NCBI GenBank assembly: GCA_023512255.1
Contig: JAILZY010000003.1
Span: 39,339 to 103,338 of the forward strand
Direction of reading: 5' to 3'
Source of the DNA: a bacterium
Lineage (GTDB): Bacteria; SZUA-182; DTGQ01
Length of the DNA: 64,000 bases
The translations under genes and the position numbers were made by a program. The notes under the pieces were generated by a model, which saw only the letters and a list, made by a program, of their open reading frames with translations, made no database searches and was not told the origin of the DNA. The first letter of the stretch is position 1. Each line of letters opens with the position of its first letter. Positions 39,973 through 52,562 of the stretch are shown one piece after another.

Positions 39973-40196
39973 ATTTTTTCCCCTCTCATATTATTTTTAT
40001 CGTCTCATCCTGGGTTTTCACCAGTTTAAAATGAAGAAAAGGAATAAGTGCAAGGTGAATGGAAAATAATGGAAAATAGATGGCTTGCGATGAAAAGTTA
40101 TGATAAAAAAGAGCCGATGAAATGGTTTTCGAGCCAAAAAGAAGCCCAAAAAAAGAGAGTGGCTGCGGTCAACTTCAAAAATCAATGGAGGAAATA

Positions 40197-41687
40197 ATGA
40201 AAAGAAATTATCCACTTCTCTTTATTTTCTGTCTTATTGGAGTCGGCATTTTCTTCTCGTGCGCAGATTCACAAGCTTTGATGAGGAAAGCCACCCTTTC
40301 TGATCTTATCAATAAGGCCGGGCATATCTGCTATGGGCAGGTTGTAGACCTCAAGAGTGAATGGGATGAAAACATGACCTCTATCTCTACAATAGTCAGG
40401 CTATCAGTTTTTGAGAGGCTGAAGGGCTCCGCGGCTTCTGGCTCCCTCAGCTTCAAGGTAGAGGGAGGAGTTGTGGGAGAAATTGGCCAAAAGAATTCAA
40501 ACAGTCCGCTCTTTTGGCCTAATGAGCGGGTGATTGTGTTTATTGATCCTCAATATCGGCTAGTTGATGAGTTTCAAGGTAAGTTTCAGGTACGGGATGG
40601 AGTTGTAGTTGAGCGAGGCTTGCTGCTCTCTGCCTTTTTGACAGAGATCAAGGATATTCTCTGTGGTAAGGGTGAGGGAAACTTCTTCCCTCGGGCTGCA
40701 GAGCGACTTTGGCCTGTTGACTCTGCTAGGAGCGATTATTCGATTTCCCCATATCGATGGTGTCAGGAAAATCCGATGGGAGAAGATTTTTACTTCCATC
40801 TCAGGACCACTGAAAACTATCGGGCTGCCTGCCTTGAGGCGGCCTTAACCTGGAATTCAAGTGGTGCTTGCTTTCAATTTTCCTATGGTGGTCTCACTCA
40901 AATCTCAGGGACTGTTTTTGACGGGGTCAATGTCATTTACTGGGATAGCCAATTGCCCGACCAAACGCTGGCCCAGACTACTTACTGGTTCAATGCCTCA
41001 ACCGGATGCATGCTTGAGGTTGACTGTGGGTTCAACGACCGGCTGGCTTGGAGCACTAACGGAGAGGAATCAGCCTATGATGTTCAGACTTGCATGCTTC
41101 ACGAATTCGGGCACTATCTTTCCCTAGACCACAGTCAGGACCCCGCGGCTATTATGTATCCTTATTATTCAGGCATAAAAAGATCTTTGAGCGATGATGA
41201 TAAGGCCGGAATTATCCGTATGTATGGAAGATGCGAGCCGGGAGAGGAGGAGCCAACCTGGGAGTATGTCTATCAGTTTTCATTAGTCTCACCTGACAAT
41301 CTTGCCCTTCTCAGGGAGTATCGGGATCAGGTATTGCGCCGTTATCCGAATGGTAATGAGCAAATCAAGCGACTTTACTCTCAATCTCATGAATTAATGA
41401 GGGTATTGATTTCAAACCCTAGGCTTATTATTCAGGCCCGGCAGCTTATTGAGAAAAATCTGCCTGAAATCCAAAAAGTGGTCAATCATCAGGAGGCTGT
41501 TTTGCAGGACCAGGAGGCAGTCTATGCTTTTTTGGATAGTCTGGCCTCTGCTTCGGGTTCGGGATCATACATCAGGATGCGGGTTTGGCTCAATGGACTG
41601 AAGCGAGAGTTGAGACTGTGCCAGCGCACCGGCGGCAAATTCTACGGCCTGCGGGTCAGGAGGTTAGGGGCAAGGCACAGGTCTTAG
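40197..41687 (+). CDS. Secreted matrixin-type zinc metalloprotease
   Basis: The 496-residue protein has a signal peptide (KRNYPLLFIFCLIGVGIFFS) ending near C23, which could be a lipidation site although the lipobox is imperfect. The protease domain has the metzincin zinc site HEFGHYLSLDH (H302, E303, H306, H312) followed by the Met-turn AAIMYPYYSG, as in matrixins. The pre-domain (30-180) contains beta-strand-like segments, possibly a propeptide. The C-terminal 110 residues are helical and charged. GGAGG 6 bases upstream supports ATG 40197. It may process the surface proteins encoded at 45-52 kb, but this is only suggested by proximity. Confidence 0.85.
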   Translation: MKRNYPLLFIFCLIGVGIFFSCADSQALMRKATLSDLINKAGHICYGQVVDLKSEWDENMTSISTIVRLSVFERLKGSAASGSLSFKVEGGVVGEIGQKNSNSPLFWPNERVIVFIDPQYRLVDEFQGKFQVRDGVVVERGLLLSAFLTEIKDILCGKGEGNFFPRAAERLWPVDSARSDYSISPYRWCQENPMGEDFYFHLRTTENYRAACLEAALTWNSSGACFQFSYGGLTQISGTVFDGVNVIYWDSQLPDQTLAQTTYWFNASTGCMLEVDCGFNDRLAWSTNGEESAYDVQTCMLHEFGHYLSLDHSQDPAAIMYPYYSGIKRSLSDDDKAGIIRMYGRCEPGEEEPTWEYVYQFSLVSPDNLALLREYRDQVLRRYPNGNEQIKRLYSQSHELMRVLISNPRLIIQARQLIEKNLPEIQKVVNHQEAVLQDQEAVYAFLDSLASASGSGSYIRMRVWLNGLKRELRLCQRTGGKFYGLRVRRLGARHRS

Positions 41688-43122: not shown

Positions 43123-45009
43123 ATGGATTCAAGCAAATTGCGGTCTATTCCTGAGCTGGATCTTTATCTTTTCAATATAGGAGAACATCGCAGGATCCAC
43201 AAATTTCTCGGAGCCCATCTGATTGAAGGAGGGGTCCGGTTTGCTGTCTGGGCGCCAAACGCCCAGCGGGTTTCAGTAGTAGGTAGCTTTAACAATTGGA
43301 ATATTCACGCTCACCCTATGGAGCGACGAGGCGGCACAGGAGTCTGGGAGTTATTTATTCCGGGGCTTCATCATGGGATTTTTTATAAGTTTGCCATCCT
43401 AAAGCCTGAAGGAAGGTGGGAATTTCGGATAGATCCCTTTGCCCGATTCATACAAAATGATGAAAACCGTACCCCGATTTTGACCGAGACCTACTATGAA
43501 TTTAAGCACCCAAAGGTAATCTTGGCTGATAAGTTCAGCAGTCCCTTGAATATCTTTGAGGTTCACCCTTTATCTTGGCGGCATAGGGGTGGGCGGCCTC
43601 TCAGTTATCTTGAGCTGATTGATGAGCTGGTGCCCTATGTCAAATATATGGAATATACCCATGTTGAACTTATGGGGATTTTAGAGCATCCCTATATCCC
43701 CTCTTGGGGATATCAGGTGATTGGATTTTATGCTCCCACCTCTCGGATGGGAACTCCTACGGAATTCAAACAGCTGATCGACGCTTTTCATCAAGCTGGG
43801 ATTGGGGTGATCTTGGACATCGTCCTGGTTCATTTCCCCAAGGATGCCACCGGTCTTGCCTTTTACGATAATGATAGTCATCTGTTTGAGAGCCCGATTC
43901 CAGAGCGGAAAATGACTGCCTGGGATACTTTCTACTTTGATTTTGGCCGCAATGAGGTTAAAAGCTTTCTCATTTCCTGCCTTTTCCATTGGATTGAGGA
44001 ATTTTATATCGATGGCTTTCGGTTCGATGCTGCCGGCCAATTTCATTATTATGAATTTTCTTCTGATCAGAAATACCGCGAATTTTTACAGCGATATGGA
44101 AACTGTCATAATCCAGAAGGGTTTCGGTTCATGCAATCCATGAACTGGGCAGTTAAGGAGGAGCATCCCGAGACGATTCTCATCGCTGAAGACTCAACCA
44201 TTGCGAGCGGCGTCACCAGGCCGGTAGAGTATGGCGGTCATGGCTTTGATTATAAGTGGGATTTAGGCTGTACCTCACACATGATGAAATATTTCCGCCG
44301 CCCTTATAGCCAGAGAAGCACTGTCTACGGAGACCTCACCTATCCCATGCTCTATCATCATACGGAAAATTTTATTCTTCCTCTCGCTCATGATGAAGTT
44401 GTTCATATGAAAAGGACCATGGTCAATAAAACAGAGGATCTTAGTGAATTTGAAAAATTTGCTAATCTCAGGCTACTCTACCTTTTGCAATTTGGCTATC
44501 CGCATAAAAAACTTCTGTTTATGGGCCAGGAATTCGGCCAGAAAAATGAATGGAATGAGCAGCAGCCCCTGTCTTGGGACTCTACCTGGGATCATCTCCA
44601 CCGATCCATGCAATGGTTTGTCAAGCGGTTGAATGAGGTTTACAAATACATTCCGGCCATGCACGAAGGTGATAATATTCTGAATGGGTTCGAGTGGATC
44701 GAGTGTCAGAATTATCGACAGAATATCCTTGCCTTTATCCGTTATGATAAAAATTATCGTGATTTTGTGGTCTATCTGATTAATCTTTCTAAAGAGTATT
44801 TTGAAGATTTTCGGCTTGGAGTCCCTTTTGCCGGTAAATACTACAAGGTGATCGACACCGATGCTCAGGAGTTTGGAGGAAATGGTCATAACTGGATTAA
44901 TGAATATGAGGCTGTAAATCAACCAGCCTTCCATCATCAGAATAGCTTTAGTACCAAGCTACTTCCTTTGCATGGCATGATCTTTAAGTCTCTGGATGTC
45001 TGGCGGTGA
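43123..45009 (+). CDS. glgB: 1,4-alpha-glucan branching enzyme
   Basis: The 628-residue protein has an N-terminal CBM48 domain (FAVWAPNAQRVSVVGSFNNW) and a GH13 barrel. The catalytic nucleophile is D302 in GFRFDAAGQF, the acid/base E356 in ILIAEDST, and the transition-state aspartate D424 in LPLAHDEVVH; the branching-enzyme hallmarks YTHVELMGILEHPYIPSWGY and GQEFGQKNEWNEQQPLSW are present. The enzyme makes alpha-1,6 branches in glycogen. The ribosome binding site is a GGGGGG tract about 11 bases before the ATG. Other glg genes are absent from the window. A strong bidirectional terminator follows. Confidence 0.94.
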   Translation: MDSSKLRSIPELDLYLFNIGEHRRIHKFLGAHLIEGGVRFAVWAPNAQRVSVVGSFNNWNIHAHPMERRGGTGVWELFIPGLHHGIFYKFAILKPEGRWEFRIDPFARFIQNDENRTPILTETYYEFKHPKVILADKFSSPLNIFEVHPLSWRHRGGRPLSYLELIDELVPYVKYMEYTHVELMGILEHPYIPSWGYQVIGFYAPTSRMGTPTEFKQLIDAFHQAGIGVILDIVLVHFPKDATGLAFYDNDSHLFESPIPERKMTAWDTFYFDFGRNEVKSFLISCLFHWIEEFYIDGFRFDAAGQFHYYEFSSDQKYREFLQRYGNCHNPEGFRFMQSMNWAVKEEHPETILIAEDSTIASGVTRPVEYGGHGFDYKWDLGCTSHMMKYFRRPYSQRSTVYGDLTYPMLYHHTENFILPLAHDEVVHMKRTMVNKTEDLSEFEKFANLRLLYLLQFGYPHKKLLFMGQEFGQKNEWNEQQPLSWDSTWDHLHRSMQWFVKRLNEVYKYIPAMHEGDNILNGFEWIECQNYRQNILAFIRYDKNYRDFVVYLINLSKEYFEDFRLGVPFAGKYYKVIDTDAQEFGGNGHNWINEYEAVNQPAFHHQNSFSTKLLPLHGMIFKSLDVWR

Positions 45010-45121: not shown

Positions 45122-45832
45122 TCAGACAATGATCGGGACGGGATTGGCCAGTGATAAGCCAACGGTACCGGTGTCGACTCTCAGATACAGAGGATCATGA
45201 ATGGTATAGGTTCCGGTAATAAAGCTTGGAGAGGTGAGGGTACAGCTATAATCCACGGTATAGGTAACCAGTTTAGCCAGGTCAAAATACGTGCCGGTCA
45301 GGGTGAATCCGGTAGCGCTGTTTAGGCCGGAGACACTGATCGGGACTGGAACAAGCTTGTTTAGGAGAAGCCCAGCGGTTCCAGATATGGTTAGCGTGCC
45401 TGGAGTATAGAGGAGCTGAAAATCAGCCGTCCCGCTGTTTAGGGTAACATAGCTTACCCAGGTACCGCTCCAGCTTCCAGTGGGGTTTGGCAAAGGAGGA
45501 ATTATAGTTGTGGTTGTTAGCGGTGCCTGAGCCTGGCGGATCATCTGTCCTGAATCTATGCCTGGGGCAAGTCCATACAAGCCAGCCAGGCCGTATAAGC
45601 CCCCTAGGCCGTATAAGCCGGCCAGACCGCCGTAGAGGCCATATGGACTGAATGCACCACCATATAAACCATAGCCTACTACCCCATATCCGTAATATGG
45701 GCTTGCTAAGCCAAATCCGCTAATACCTGCAAGCCCCCCACCGTAATACGCCGGGGCATTTTGGCTAATAGCCATAGACACTGCTAAAAGGAGAAAAAAC
45801 ATAAAAATTACTTTTGCTCTCACGAACCTCAT
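45122..45832 (-). CDS. Secreted Gly/Tyr-rich protein, paralogue 1
   Basis: A 236-residue exported protein. The signal peptide (RFVRAKVIFMFFLLLAVSMA, cleavage near SQNAPA-YY) is followed by about 65 residues dominated by G, Y, L and A in motifs such as YGGGLAGISGFG, YGLYGG and LYGLAGLYGL. After a short linker comes a C-terminal beta-rich domain of about 120 residues beginning LPNPTGSWSGTWVSYVTLNS and ending near YLRVDTGTVGLSLANP. The same domain ends the paralogue at 46001, so the pair arose by tandem duplication. The Gly/Tyr tract resembles structural or self-assembling sequences. GGGAGG before ATG 45832 sets the start. The function is unknown; surface or matrix role is inferred. Confidence 0.82.
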   Translation of the reverse strand: MRFVRAKVIFMFFLLLAVSMAISQNAPAYYGGGLAGISGFGLASPYYGYGVVGYGLYGGAFSPYGLYGGLAGLYGLGGLYGLAGLYGLAPGIDSGQMIRQAQAPLTTTTIIPPLPNPTGSWSGTWVSYVTLNSGTADFQLLYTPGTLTISGTAGLLLNKLVPVPISVSGLNSATGFTLTGTYFDLAKLVTYTVDYSCTLTSPSFITGTYTIHDPLYLRVDTGTVGLSLANPVPIIV

Positions 45833-45944
45833 AGTACATACCTCCCTTTTCCAAAACATCCCACAAACTAGAAGGAGGAGCAGGGAGCGAGGTTTATCAC
45901 ATCGCTTAAAGCCCCCAACCTTCGCCAAGAAAACAGCAGCTTAG

Positions 45945-45983
45945 GGTGAATTTATCTTCACCTTACCCTTGTTTTAAAAGGGT
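45945..45983 (-). terminator. Two small hairpins between the paralogous genes
   Basis: GGTGAA/TTCACC (45945-45962) and TACCCTT/AGGGTA (45964-45983) follow the stop of the gene at 46001 on the minus strand. Neither is followed by a long T-run, so they could be a weak terminator or processing site within an operon. Confidence 0.5.
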
Positions 45984-46000
45984 AGCTTCTGGCCTTAGTC

Positions 46001-46933
46001 TCAGATGACCAGGCTTAAATTAAACTCACCCGCATCACTCTTGAGATATAGGGCATCATGGATTAAATACGTTCCGGCGAGAAAAGATGGAGAAACCAAA
46101 GTGCAGGCATACTCAGCGTAGTAAGTTACCAGGCTAGTGGGGTCAAGATAGCTGCCGCTTAGAGTGAAGCCAGTCGCCGTGTTCAATCCAGAGACCGTAA
46201 TGGGTAACGGTATCAGCTTGTTCAGCAAAAGCCCTGCGGTTCCAGAAACAGTTAGAGTCAAGGGGTTATAGGTAAGATTGAAATTGGCAATACCCCCTTT
46301 TAGGGTAATGTAGCTCAGCCAGGTGCCGCTCCAGGTACCGGTGGGATTTGGCAATGCCGGGACAGCGGACACAGAGCTGGTAGAAGTCGAGGTTGTAGGC
46401 AGGGTCAGCCCCGAGCTGAGAAGTACTTGGGCTTCTCTGGACAGCGGATTAATACCTTCACCTAAACCATATCTACCCAGCAGGCCGCCGTAGAGGCCGC
46501 CGTATAGACCACCGTAGAGACCATACAGGCTGCTCCCATAAAGACCATACAACCCGCCATATAAGCTACTACCATAGAGGCCGCCATATAAACCATACAA
46601 TCCGCCATATAGGCCGAGACTGCCGCCATATAGACCTAGCCCACCATACCCACCATACAGGCCACCGTACCCGCCATACAGGCCACCATACCCGCCATAC
46701 AGGCCACCATATAGACCGCCGTATAGACCACCATAGAGACCGTACAACCCACCGTACAGCCCACTGCTGTAGTATACAGTTCCCAGGCTGGATCCGCTGC
46801 CTGTGATGCTACCGATGCCATAACCATATAGGCCGCCGCCATAGTAGCCTTGCGCACCTGTACCATATAAAGCTAATGATATAACTAATGCCAGAAATAC
46901 TGCCCAACGTGCTTTCTCTCTCAAAAGCCTCAT
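46001..46933 (-). CDS. Secreted Gly/Tyr-rich repeat protein, paralogue 2
   Basis: A 310-residue exported protein with the same plan as its neighbour but a much longer repeat. The signal peptide (LREKARWAVFLALVISLALY) is followed by about 130 residues of tandem YGGLYG, YGGYGGL and LYGLYGG units, then a linker with Ser/Thr, then the same C-terminal beta domain (LPNPTGTWSGTWLSYITLKG through YLKSDAGEFNLSLVI). The coding DNA of the tract is itself an imperfect repeat, which would allow length change by slippage. GGGAG 10 bases before ATG 46933 sets the start. Probably a surface fibre, adhesive or matrix protein; this is inferred from composition only. Confidence 0.82.
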   Translation of the reverse strand: MRLLREKARWAVFLALVISLALYGTGAQGYYGGGLYGYGIGSITGSGSSLGTVYYSSGLYGGLYGLYGGLYGGLYGGLYGGYGGLYGGYGGLYGGYGGLGLYGGSLGLYGGLYGLYGGLYGSSLYGGLYGLYGSSLYGLYGGLYGGLYGGLLGRYGLGEGINPLSREAQVLLSSGLTLPTTSTSTSSVSAVPALPNPTGTWSGTWLSYITLKGGIANFNLTYNPLTLTVSGTAGLLLNKLIPLPITVSGLNTATGFTLSGSYLDPTSLVTYYAEYACTLVSPSFLAGTYLIHDALYLKSDAGEFNLSLVI

Positions 46934-47350
46934 GCCCAAATTACTCCCTTCATTTTTGAATACGAAAAATACGCTCATACTTCAAGTTTCACTTTGAATC
47001 TCACAATTTCTCACCGTAATCTTCTCTACAATACGATTTCGCTCTCACCTCCTTCAGGTTTTTTCAAATGGGGTAATATTGGCCTTGAGCAGATCGCGGA
47101 TCATAGATTGGTTTTATGGTCAATATACCCACTTCTAGCGGTCATATCCCATTAACCTGAAAATGATCAAGATGGGGAAACCAGAGGTCAACTAGGTCGA
47201 AGAATCAACTAGGTCAAACAAGAATGCAACCCGCGACGATCGGAAGGATTAACCGCAATTTCATAAATATCATACATTCATACATAATAAGCACATTCAT
47301 ACATAATAAGCAATTCATAAGCAATCACCACCACCAGGGGAAGTAACCAG
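46934..47350. other. Upstream region with a 19-bp tandem repeat
   Basis: No gene. CATTCATACATAATAAGCA occurs twice in perfect tandem (47275-47293, 47294-47312) with a partial third copy to 47323. An unused strong ribosome-binding-like AAGGAGGTGAG lies on the minus strand near 47047-47057. This region should hold the promoter of the Gly/Tyr-rich gene. Confidence 0.55.
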
Positions 47351-47865: not shown

Positions 47866-50800
47866 CTACTTTACGGTTGACTGCTTAACCGATTGCATCG
47901 CCGGCTGCACAGTCTGCTGAGCTGGCTGCTGCTGGGCTAGCTGGGCTGGCTGAGCTGGAACGGTGCTTGTCTGCTGGGTTGATTGGGCCACTGGCTGTTG
48001 CACGGGCTGCTGGGCCGGCTGTTCTAGCTGCTGCTGTCCAGGCTGCTGGATCGCCGGCTGCACGGTTTGTTGAGCTGGCTGGGCTGGCTGAGCTGGCTGC
48101 TGCGCTTGCTGAGCTGGCTGCTGCGCTGGCTGGGCTGACTGCTGGGTTGATTGCTTTATCGGAGGATTAATCGGCGACTGCCCTGGCGGCGGAACAGGAG
48201 TGCGGGGTGGGGGAAGTACCCGATAGATGTAGTCAGCGCCAAAGAATTTGCAACTTATCCCCCGGTACTTGAATAAGCCATTCACTTCAAAATAGTCATC
48301 AATAGGAACCTCAGTAACCTTAGACCGGTTGAATCTGCAGATAGAGGTGTGCTCTACCCAATCGTGGTTAATCTGATCTGCCACCGCTCCATCGGCAACT
48401 GCCTCATATATAGTTAGAGCATCATAAGGAGAGGGAAAGTGGATAAAAGCGACAAAAGTAGTTGCCCCTATTTTTTGAATCTCATCCTTGATCACTAGTT
48501 GATCTCCAGTCAGTCTAAGAACTACCTCAAACTGCACCGAGGCTGACCCCACATTGCCGCACTCATCCGTGGCAACTACCGTGATTGTATTTTGTCCGAC
48601 TAGCTCAGCCATATTGAGTGAAATTGGAGGGTGGGGACTAAGATAAATCGGTGCAGCCCCATTATTGGAAAGCTTGACCACAACTTCTGGATCGGGGTCA
48701 CAGTTATCAATCACAGTGTAATCGAGAGCGACTATGTCAGTGGTGAAATATTTCACTGCTAACGGCTTGATAGTGACAGATGGACTTTCCTCATCAAGGA
48801 CAGTTACCTTGAAGCTGCAAGTGGCTGTATTTCCATAACTATCCGTAGCTGTATAGGTTACCAGGGTTCCTTGAGCACTGTCTTTGCATTCTGCAGGGAA
48901 GAAATCACCAGGCTTATGGGTGCTTTCTACGGTTACCGGACCACAATTGTCGCTAAAGACCGGTGGGGTCCAGGAAACCTTTGCACCGCATACCCCAGGC
49001 TCATTTCTGACGGTTATGTCAGTCGGACACCCGTTGATAATCATAGGCCCTATGGTATCCGAAACCGTTACTGTGAAACTACACTCTTGCTTATTCCCAC
49101 AGTCATCTGTAGCTGTGTAGATAACTTTCGTCGTGCCGATGGGGAAAAAATCACCCGGCTCATGGTTACTGGTTACGGTTACCGAGCCGCAATTGTCCCT
49201 AAAGGTTTGGGGAATCCAGAAAACTTTTGCCCCGCAGGCTTCAGGATCAGCACTTACAGTTATATCATCCGGACAGCCGCTGACCATAGGCGCTTCCTTA
49301 TCGAGCACTATAACTCTGAAGCTACAGCTTGCTTCATTCCCATACTCATCTCTGGCCGTGTAGGTAACTATGGTTCCTTTGGCCTCACTTTCGCATTCTG
49401 CGGGGAAGAAATCACCAGGATTATGGGTGCTGGTTACGGTTACCGGACCGCAATCGCCAACAAAGGTTGGTGGGATCCAAAATACCTTTGCCCCGCACTC
49501 TCCAGCCTGGTTATTTACCGTGATGTCAGGCGGACAGGGTTCGATCGGCGTAATTAGACCAATTCCTCCCCCTTCAACCGTTATATTAAATTCGCAAGGG
49601 GCGGCCTCATTGCCAGAGCTATCCTTGGCTGTGTAGATAACTTTAGTTGTTCCAACTGGAAAGGAGTCCCCAGGGACTACATTCTCCCGCTTTGTGCCGT
49701 CAGGATATATAGCAATGCTTGTTACGATTACCTGACAATTGTCCTTAAAGACAGGCGGAGTCCAGCTTACTGGAGACTCTTTTCCGCATATGCCACTTAC
49801 ATTGATATTACCTGGACAGTCGCTGATAAGTATAGGAGCAATTTTGTCCACCACCGTTACTGTAGCTGTGCAGGTGCTCTGATTGCCGCTGGTGTCAATG
49901 ACGGTCAGGGTAACCAGATTGGGGCCAATATTGTCGCAGGTGAAGGTATCTGGGAAGACCTCCATTTTGGCAATGCCGCAATTGTCGGCTGAGCCATTAT
50001 CTACATCCTGGGGGTTGATAGAGACCTGGCCGCTGGCATCAAGCTGCACGGTGATGTTCTTACACCTGGCCTCAGGGGGAATGGGATCCACTACCGTTAC
50101 TGTAGCTGTGCAGGTGCTCTGATTGCCGCTGGTATCAGTTACGGTCAGGATAACCAGATTGGGGCCAATATTGTCGCAGGTGAAGGTATCAGGGAAGACC
50201 TCCATTTTGGCAATACCGCAATTATCAGATGAGCCATTATCTACATCCTGGGGGTTGATTATAGCCTTGCCGCTGGCATCAAGCTGCACGGTGATATCCT
50301 TGGCTATGCACAGGGATAGTTCGCTGTCTTTGACTGTAACAGTAAAGGTACAGCTTATCGGAATTCCGCAATTATCCACCGCTTCATAGGTAACTTCCGT
50401 TGTCCCAACCTCAAAGAAACTGCCAGGGTTATGGGTGCTAGTTACCTTCAGGCTGCAATCATCGACAAATTTTGGTGGAGTCCAATCAACCCGCGCTCCA
50501 CACTTTCCTGGTTCATTATCTTGGGGTGGGATGTTGGTCGGGCAATATTCAATGGATGGGCCATCGTTTACGATCGGTAGGGTAAAGGTGCACTCGGCGA
50601 CGATTCCATCTACATCCTGAGCCGTGTAAGTAACTATAGGCCCTGTAGCACCACATTCTATGGGAAATAGATCACCAGGCTTATGATTACTAATTACCGT
50701 CACCGGACCGCAGACACCAAAGTCTGGCTCAGGCCAGAATACTTGTGCCTTGCACTCTTCAGTAATCTTATTGATGGTGATATCAGATGGAGTTGGACAG

Positions 50801-52236: not shown

Positions 52237-52562
52237 AGATTACATTTCCTCACCTTATAGTACATTAGAGTACATTTAGTTTAATTTTCAATCATTTTCC
52301 CCCCTGTAAGCTGGTTGACAGATATAATATTTTACTTATCTATCTAGTTAGCAAATTAATTGAATTTAATTTAAAGCTTACAATTTACTTCACCTCCTTG
52401 AAGCCTTCTTCATCATGCCCATTGATTTCACTTATGATCAAGATAAAGATATATGATCAAAAGACAAGGAGATAAACCAAAGACTTCGGTTGCTCAAAGT
52501 TGCAATTGAAGCTATTGTAATTAATAATTTTTTATAATTAAAAAATAATAAGAGATATATAT
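52237..52562. other. Upstream region of the HYR protein gene
   Basis: AT-rich, no gene. A strong ribosome-binding-like AAGGAGGTGAAG occurs on the minus strand near 52390-52401 without a frame after it, like the one upstream of the Gly/Tyr-rich gene. Promoter expected here, not pinned down. Confidence 0.45.

Follow-up and report, generated by a model that had tools for sequence, protein, structure and literature searches.

Secreted Gly/Tyr/Leu-tract proteins with a predicted eight-stranded C-terminal barrel form a gene family in one order of uncultured bacteria

Spidroins carry a secretion signal, a long Gly-rich repetitive region and a conserved non-repetitive C-terminal domain, they occur as several paralogues, and their C-terminal domain is helical. 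One published passage describes this domain as required for fibre assembly (PMC11143275). In the squid ring teeth proteins (suckerins), which are also secreted and form a set of paralogous proteins, Gly/Tyr-rich YGGLYGG-type soft segments alternate with crystal-forming Ala/Val/Ser/Thr/His blocks. The soft segment has been given as STGTLSYGYGGLYGGLYGGLGYG, and it has been characterized as amorphous and self-healing, with hydrogen-bonding by Tyr (PMC4555047, PMC6393770).

Here we describe two neighbouring minus-strand genes of a bacterial contig, located in a stretch of 64,000 nucleotides that is referred to as the window (Table 1). A preliminary description of this DNA had presented them as tandem paralogues, each with a signal peptide, a Gly/Tyr tract and a shared C-terminal beta domain, and this observation is confirmed. 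For gene 1 a longer ORF with a TTG start was set aside, and the form with the ATG start was taken. Both signal peptides have a basic-hydrophobic N-terminus and a signal-peptidase-like junction; the tract starts right at the presumed signal-peptidase site, and in many members of the family described below the signal is likewise followed directly by YYG. The two tracts differ in length as had been proposed, with about 60 and 123 residues in place of the 65 and 130 first given. The N-terminal region of gene 2 (165 residues) is composed of 35% Gly, 20% Leu, 18% Tyr and 12% Ser. It lacks Cys and Trp and has four charged residues, and the tract of gene 2 contains a run of 100 residues made up of G, Y, L and S only. 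The C-terminal domain comprises approximately 117 residues and is 67% identical between genes 1 and 2.

Table 1. Features of the gene pair and its surroundings (positions within the window)
Feature	Position	Strand	Remarks
Gene 1, secreted tract + barrel protein, 236 aa	45122..45832	-	ATG start; syntenic orthologue in sister species
Gene 1 signal peptide, residues 1-28, NAPA/YYGG	45749..45832	-	Predicted by sequence reading; AxA/YY junction in many paralogues
Gene 1 Gly/Tyr/Leu/Ala tract, about 60 residues	45569..45748	-	
Gene 1 linker, Thr/Pro-rich	45494..45568	-	
Gene 1 C-terminal barrel domain	45125..45493	-	
Gene 2, secreted tract + barrel protein, 310 aa	46001..46933	-	Syntenic orthologue in sister species
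Gene 2 signal peptide, residues 1-29, GAQG/YYGG	46847..46933	-	Predicted by sequence reading
Gene 2 Gly/Tyr/Leu tract, about 123 residues	46478..46846	-	Includes YGGLYGGLYGGL
Gene 2 linker, end Ser/Thr-rich	46355..46477	-	
Gene 2 C-terminal eight-stranded barrel domain	46004..46354	-	AlphaFold model; avidin-like fold matches
glgB-like branching enzyme, convergent with the pair	43123..45009	+	GH13 match; synteny kept in sister species, 93% identity
Distal SD-like element AAGGAGGTG, 120 nt upstream of gene 2 start	47046..47054	-	Enriched in family leaders
Same distal element, upstream of HYR-domain surface protein gene	52391..52399	-	Among few non-family carriers

The C-terminal domain is repeated many times in the window's genome, where 18 copies were found by single-sequence search and 20 by profile (19-20), genes 1 and 2 being two of the 20. 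A further 11 secreted tract proteins of this genome do not have the barrel domain, which brings the tract genes to at least 31 in all. When 97 genomes were searched, the domain profile was present in five, all from a single order of uncultured bacteria: the genome itself (19-20 copies), one of the same genus (25), two of the same family (9 and 2) and one of the same order (7); no match was obtained in four genomes of the same class nor in the rest of the 97. A DNA pattern for GLYGGLYG matched 115 times in the window's genome and its reversed version 0 times, so these tracts are not due to chance. Among 386 genomes scanned, the five that bear the domain gave 115, 98, 12, 2 and 20 matches, and the other 381 gave one lone match; that genome is also matched once by the reversed control. 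Scanning contigs with the domain of gene 2 alone returned no match; with the domain alignment, six loci were recovered in the MAGs CSMAG_150, CSMAG_2299 and Zod_Metabat.896, of which the first two names fit the cold-seep catalogue (PMC10491686) and the third the Zodletone Spring MAGs (PMC8248873). Placement of the lineage in phylum CSSED10-310 was not supported: Zod_Metabat.896 is missing from the MAGs of the corresponding paper. Searches of the domain against Pfam, NCBIfam, PHROGs and PDB sequences gave no usable match, which bears out the earlier statement that no named family has this combination. By these searches, genes 1 and 2 belong to a previously unnamed, order-specific domain family of 20 genes in this genome.

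The members of this group are modular. A middle module (SPFGLQNMYY...QIAPLLGIAGLY...LFP) is common to some tract proteins without the domain and to some domain proteins, hence these three kinds of module (tract, middle and C-terminal) occur in mixed combinations. The barrel stops 0-4 residues before the C-terminus in most members, and it is also found on proteins with other N-terminal regions, for example Pro/Ala/Tyr-rich ones; both features would agree with a C-terminal sorting or anchoring domain, similar to other conserved C-terminal secretion signals, whose functional cargo would be the tract. We consider this role unlikely, given that the barrel is missing from no fewer than 11 of the secreted tract proteins in this genome, that 19-128 residues follow it in some members, and that partner machinery was not found.

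Two types of protein from this group have features of their own. A barrel-less secreted tract protein with a single terminal heme-type CxxCH site is encoded at L128:3737-4486 (G000 C157), L137:3662-4411 and L132:1801-2607; the site is CTQCH in the window's genome and is kept as CTQCH and CVQCH in two other genomes, and a Pfam search with this protein gave no match. At L128:1786-2781 and L137:1842-2936 there is a secreted protein, kept in the sister species, in which SYGSYGYSPYG repeats are followed by a GLYG tract, that is, another low-complexity composition within the same group.

The AlphaFold model of the gene 2 domain is all-beta and forms an eight-stranded meander barrel (pLDDT 94.9, pTM 0.87), in agreement with the beta domain proposed in the preliminary description; for a member that is 24% identical the same eight strands were obtained, with models that agree less (best 88.5). 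Strand 1 bears an invariant G/W pattern, and strands 2-8 have one more hydrophobic face with conserved glycine and an opposite face of Thr/Ser/Asn. By analogy with the avidin match the hydrophobic face would point inward, and nearly all members terminate in Ile/Val; outer-membrane beta barrels have an aromatic C-terminal beta-signal and a hydrophobic exterior that faces the lipid. Among natural folds, avidins match best (Foldseek E 3.9e-4, TM 0.66-0.71 to monomeric streptavidin; Z about 12, 12.2, in the VIA structure search), and other structural neighbours are the Cap15 barrel, a quinohemoprotein amine dehydrogenase domain and designed barrels (VIA), as well as NHBA (Foldseek). De novo designed barrels match the model as well as avidins do, so the match is a general one, of fold only, as the other structural neighbours show too.

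The domain resembles avidin and streptavidin (PF01382) in its predicted eight-stranded meander barrel with a GxW start, but it has no sequence-profile similarity to them (12-15% identity). The avidin profile PF01382 gave 0 matches in 9 genomes at E<=10 and none among 18 domains, and the profile-profile comparison of the barrel domain with avidin (hhalign) returned a probability of 0.4%. We take W79, W92 and W108, in strands 5-7, to be the biotin-site tryptophans of streptavidin; they are absent from the barrel domain of the window, whose only tryptophans are W9 and W13, both in strand 1. The positions of the polar biotin contacts N23 and D128 may be occupied by G11 and F112, going by an ungapped reading of the ends aligned by VIA (model 2-118 on chain 14-134). 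Membership of the avidin family was rejected, given that profile, hhalign and biotin-site tryptophans all fail. The profile search and structure prediction that had been suggested for this domain have returned an avidin-like fold without the biotin-site tryptophans, and by sequence no known family.

An eight-stranded barrel with avidins as its best natural fold matches could bind a small molecule or a glycan, as in avidins or calycins, the tract being only a sticky spacer or display arm. The genomic neighbourhood offers a possible link to such a ligand, given that alpha-glucan genes lie near several family loci. Besides the glgB-like gene next to the window pair, the single phosphorylase of the genome is placed between the C118 copies and two GH13 genes lie beside the C26 copy; in another family of the order a phosphorylase adjoins a family copy, and in another genus a GH13 gene does so. 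The corresponding loci (GH13, glucan phosphorylase) are, besides that of the window, L149:10810-12573, L154:4869-9860, L191:774-2510 and L188:6627-7928. The association was spotted post hoc and is no more than suggestive. In addition, the conserved face is hydrophobic with glycine and has no conserved polar pocket-lining residues, and the tryptophans are confined to strand 1, without those of the biotin site in strands 5-7; we regard ligand binding as improbable. Other genes around family copies encode candidate subtilisin-like secreted proteases, judged by eye (L151:5906-7867, L154:2971-4935 and L065:5910-7649), and near the pair in the window there is a secreted-looking protein with a matrixin (M10) metallopeptidase domain (40122-41687).

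Within the set of papers searched, LYGGLYG-type strings occur in those on squid ring teeth protein. The identity to the soft segment reaches 14 consecutive residues (YGYGGLYGGLYGGL) in four domain paralogues, 12 in gene 2 and 6 in gene 1; this literal match supports the earlier remark that the composition resembles that of self-assembling material. In contrast to the squid proteins, crystal-forming blocks are missing from the gene 2 tract, and the bacterial family has a folded C-terminal domain. The likeness is one of convergent low-complexity sequence, not of homology, and the squid segment is the best available guide to the physical behaviour of the tract. The bacterial genes also follow the general spidroin layout; nonetheless, their C-terminal domain is a predicted all-beta barrel in place of a helical domain, the tract motif differs, the proteins are far shorter and there is no sequence relation.

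The family is old. Each of the 20 copies pairs with a gene of the sister species as its reciprocal best match, with domain identities of 69-93%, and because of these orthologues the duplications must be old. A tree built from 59 domains shows no sister pair among the copies of this genome, and it places the split between genes 1 and 2 before the divergence from another genus; in the sister species the pair also adjoins glgB. For the orthologous domains dS is 0.6-1.65 and dN/dS 0.04-0.19 (0.08 for gene 1 and 0.04 for gene 2). On this evidence each copy has a single, stable orthologue and evolves under purifying selection.

It had been proposed that slippage within the repeats generates surface variation. 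Tract length, whose invariance across strains had been named as an argument against this proposal, does differ between species: in the window pair the N-terminal regions of the orthologues measure 165 vs 155 and 86 vs 74 residues, and in other cases 67 vs 110 and 101 vs 140. One tandem pair (C118; L142:2266-4154, G000) shares a 333-nt tract with one mismatch, its domains being 61% identical, which would also suit phase- or length-variable surface antigens. However, the homogeneous DNA repeat of slippage-driven phase-variable genes was not found. The repeat is weak at the DNA level, where Tandem Repeats Finder detected nothing beyond short, imperfect arrays (12, 21 and 24 bp); the 14 LYGG units of gene 2 are encoded by 13 different 12-mers, and in none of the 11 tracts tested (p 0.06-0.96) did adjacent units resemble each other more than distant units did. 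Slippage switching is disfavoured because the units are scrambled at synonymous sites, and the stable orthologues also speak against it. The tracts orthologous to the C118 pair are 69% identical in the sister species, and the near-identity within the pair, for which gene conversion or a short-read assembly error may account, points to gene conversion rather than slippage. We rejected the slippage reading, which we find very improbable.

Upstream of gene 2, whose own SD is in place, lies a second SD-like element, which the orthologous leader retains despite indels around it (Table 1). Perfect GGAGGTG-type sites off the SD position occur in 13 of 30 family leaders vs 3 of 162 neighbouring genes used as controls, with start codons picked by rule (p about 1e-9, an after-the-fact value because the element came from an unguided dyad search). 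In the sister species they occur in 7 of 15 family and 4 of 104 control leaders (p about 3e-5, equally after the fact, in a test that uses orthologues and is not fully independent), and shuffled leaders give 0.4 and 0.3. The element is absent from 17 of the 30 family leaders, among them the one of gene 1, and its enrichment does not extend to two more distant genomes (1/13). No other common element stood out in the dyad search of upstream regions, and Rfam reported only a tRNA in the window. The sites are mostly about 85-190 nt upstream of the chosen start; a start codon follows at SD distance in 1 of 13, and on this ground a leader ORF was rejected. STAB-SD 5' mRNA stabilisers are also perfect SD-like leader sequences, far from the start codon and rarely followed by one; they are mentioned in a passage of PMC3997798 that cites Agaisse and Lereclus (1996). 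Stabilisers of this type prolong the half-life of the mRNA and lie close to its 5' end. The present sites, read in the DNA, differ from STAB-SD in their distance and in being common to one secreted protein family. By analogy, a STAB-SD-type stabilisation of the mRNA may be supposed. Among the few carriers outside the family is the gene of a 1456-aa surface protein with HYR domains (Pfam PF02494; 47866-52236), with the element 162 nt upstream, a 240-bp internal tandem duplication (49847-50295) and a Gln/Pro-rich tail.

The reading that we favour, with about even chances, is a family of abundant structural proteins that associate with themselves in the envelope or outside the cell. Once the signal peptide is removed the mature protein would start directly with the GLYGG tract, a flexible and almost charge-free chain that may self-associate through tyrosine and hydrogen bonding, as the squid soft segment does. 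The barrel would act as a folded, soluble cap. It may maintain the solubility of the chain, or register or anchor it, a role like that of the spidroin terminal domain despite the different fold. Many paralogues of varied tract length and cap might be expressed together and blend into a material outside the cell or in the envelope, and the distal SD-like site could stabilise the mRNA, with a high output suited to a structural protein. The self-assembling reading is plausible and has been strengthened, and the tract proteins would have an adhesive or structural function. Against it, low-complexity tracts converge easily, and the crystal-forming blocks of the squid type were not seen; no route for export across the outer membrane was identified. 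A broader proposal, which we put forward only tentatively and as somewhat doubtful, is that this order builds a silk- or sucker-tooth-like extracellular material from about 30 paralogues, with sticky GLYGG tracts capped by an avidin-fold barrel, by a heme-carrying domain or by nothing, and with bulk output through the mRNA-stabilising leader element.

If true, this would be an independently reached bacterial counterpart of a structural protein of animals that already serves as an engineered material, and the family would offer natural tract and cap variants for materials work. The domain family is missing from Pfam and NCBIfam, and the leader element would be one for mRNA stability in a little-known lineage. 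For the uncultured organism itself, the family represents roughly 1% of the genes, as estimated from genome size.
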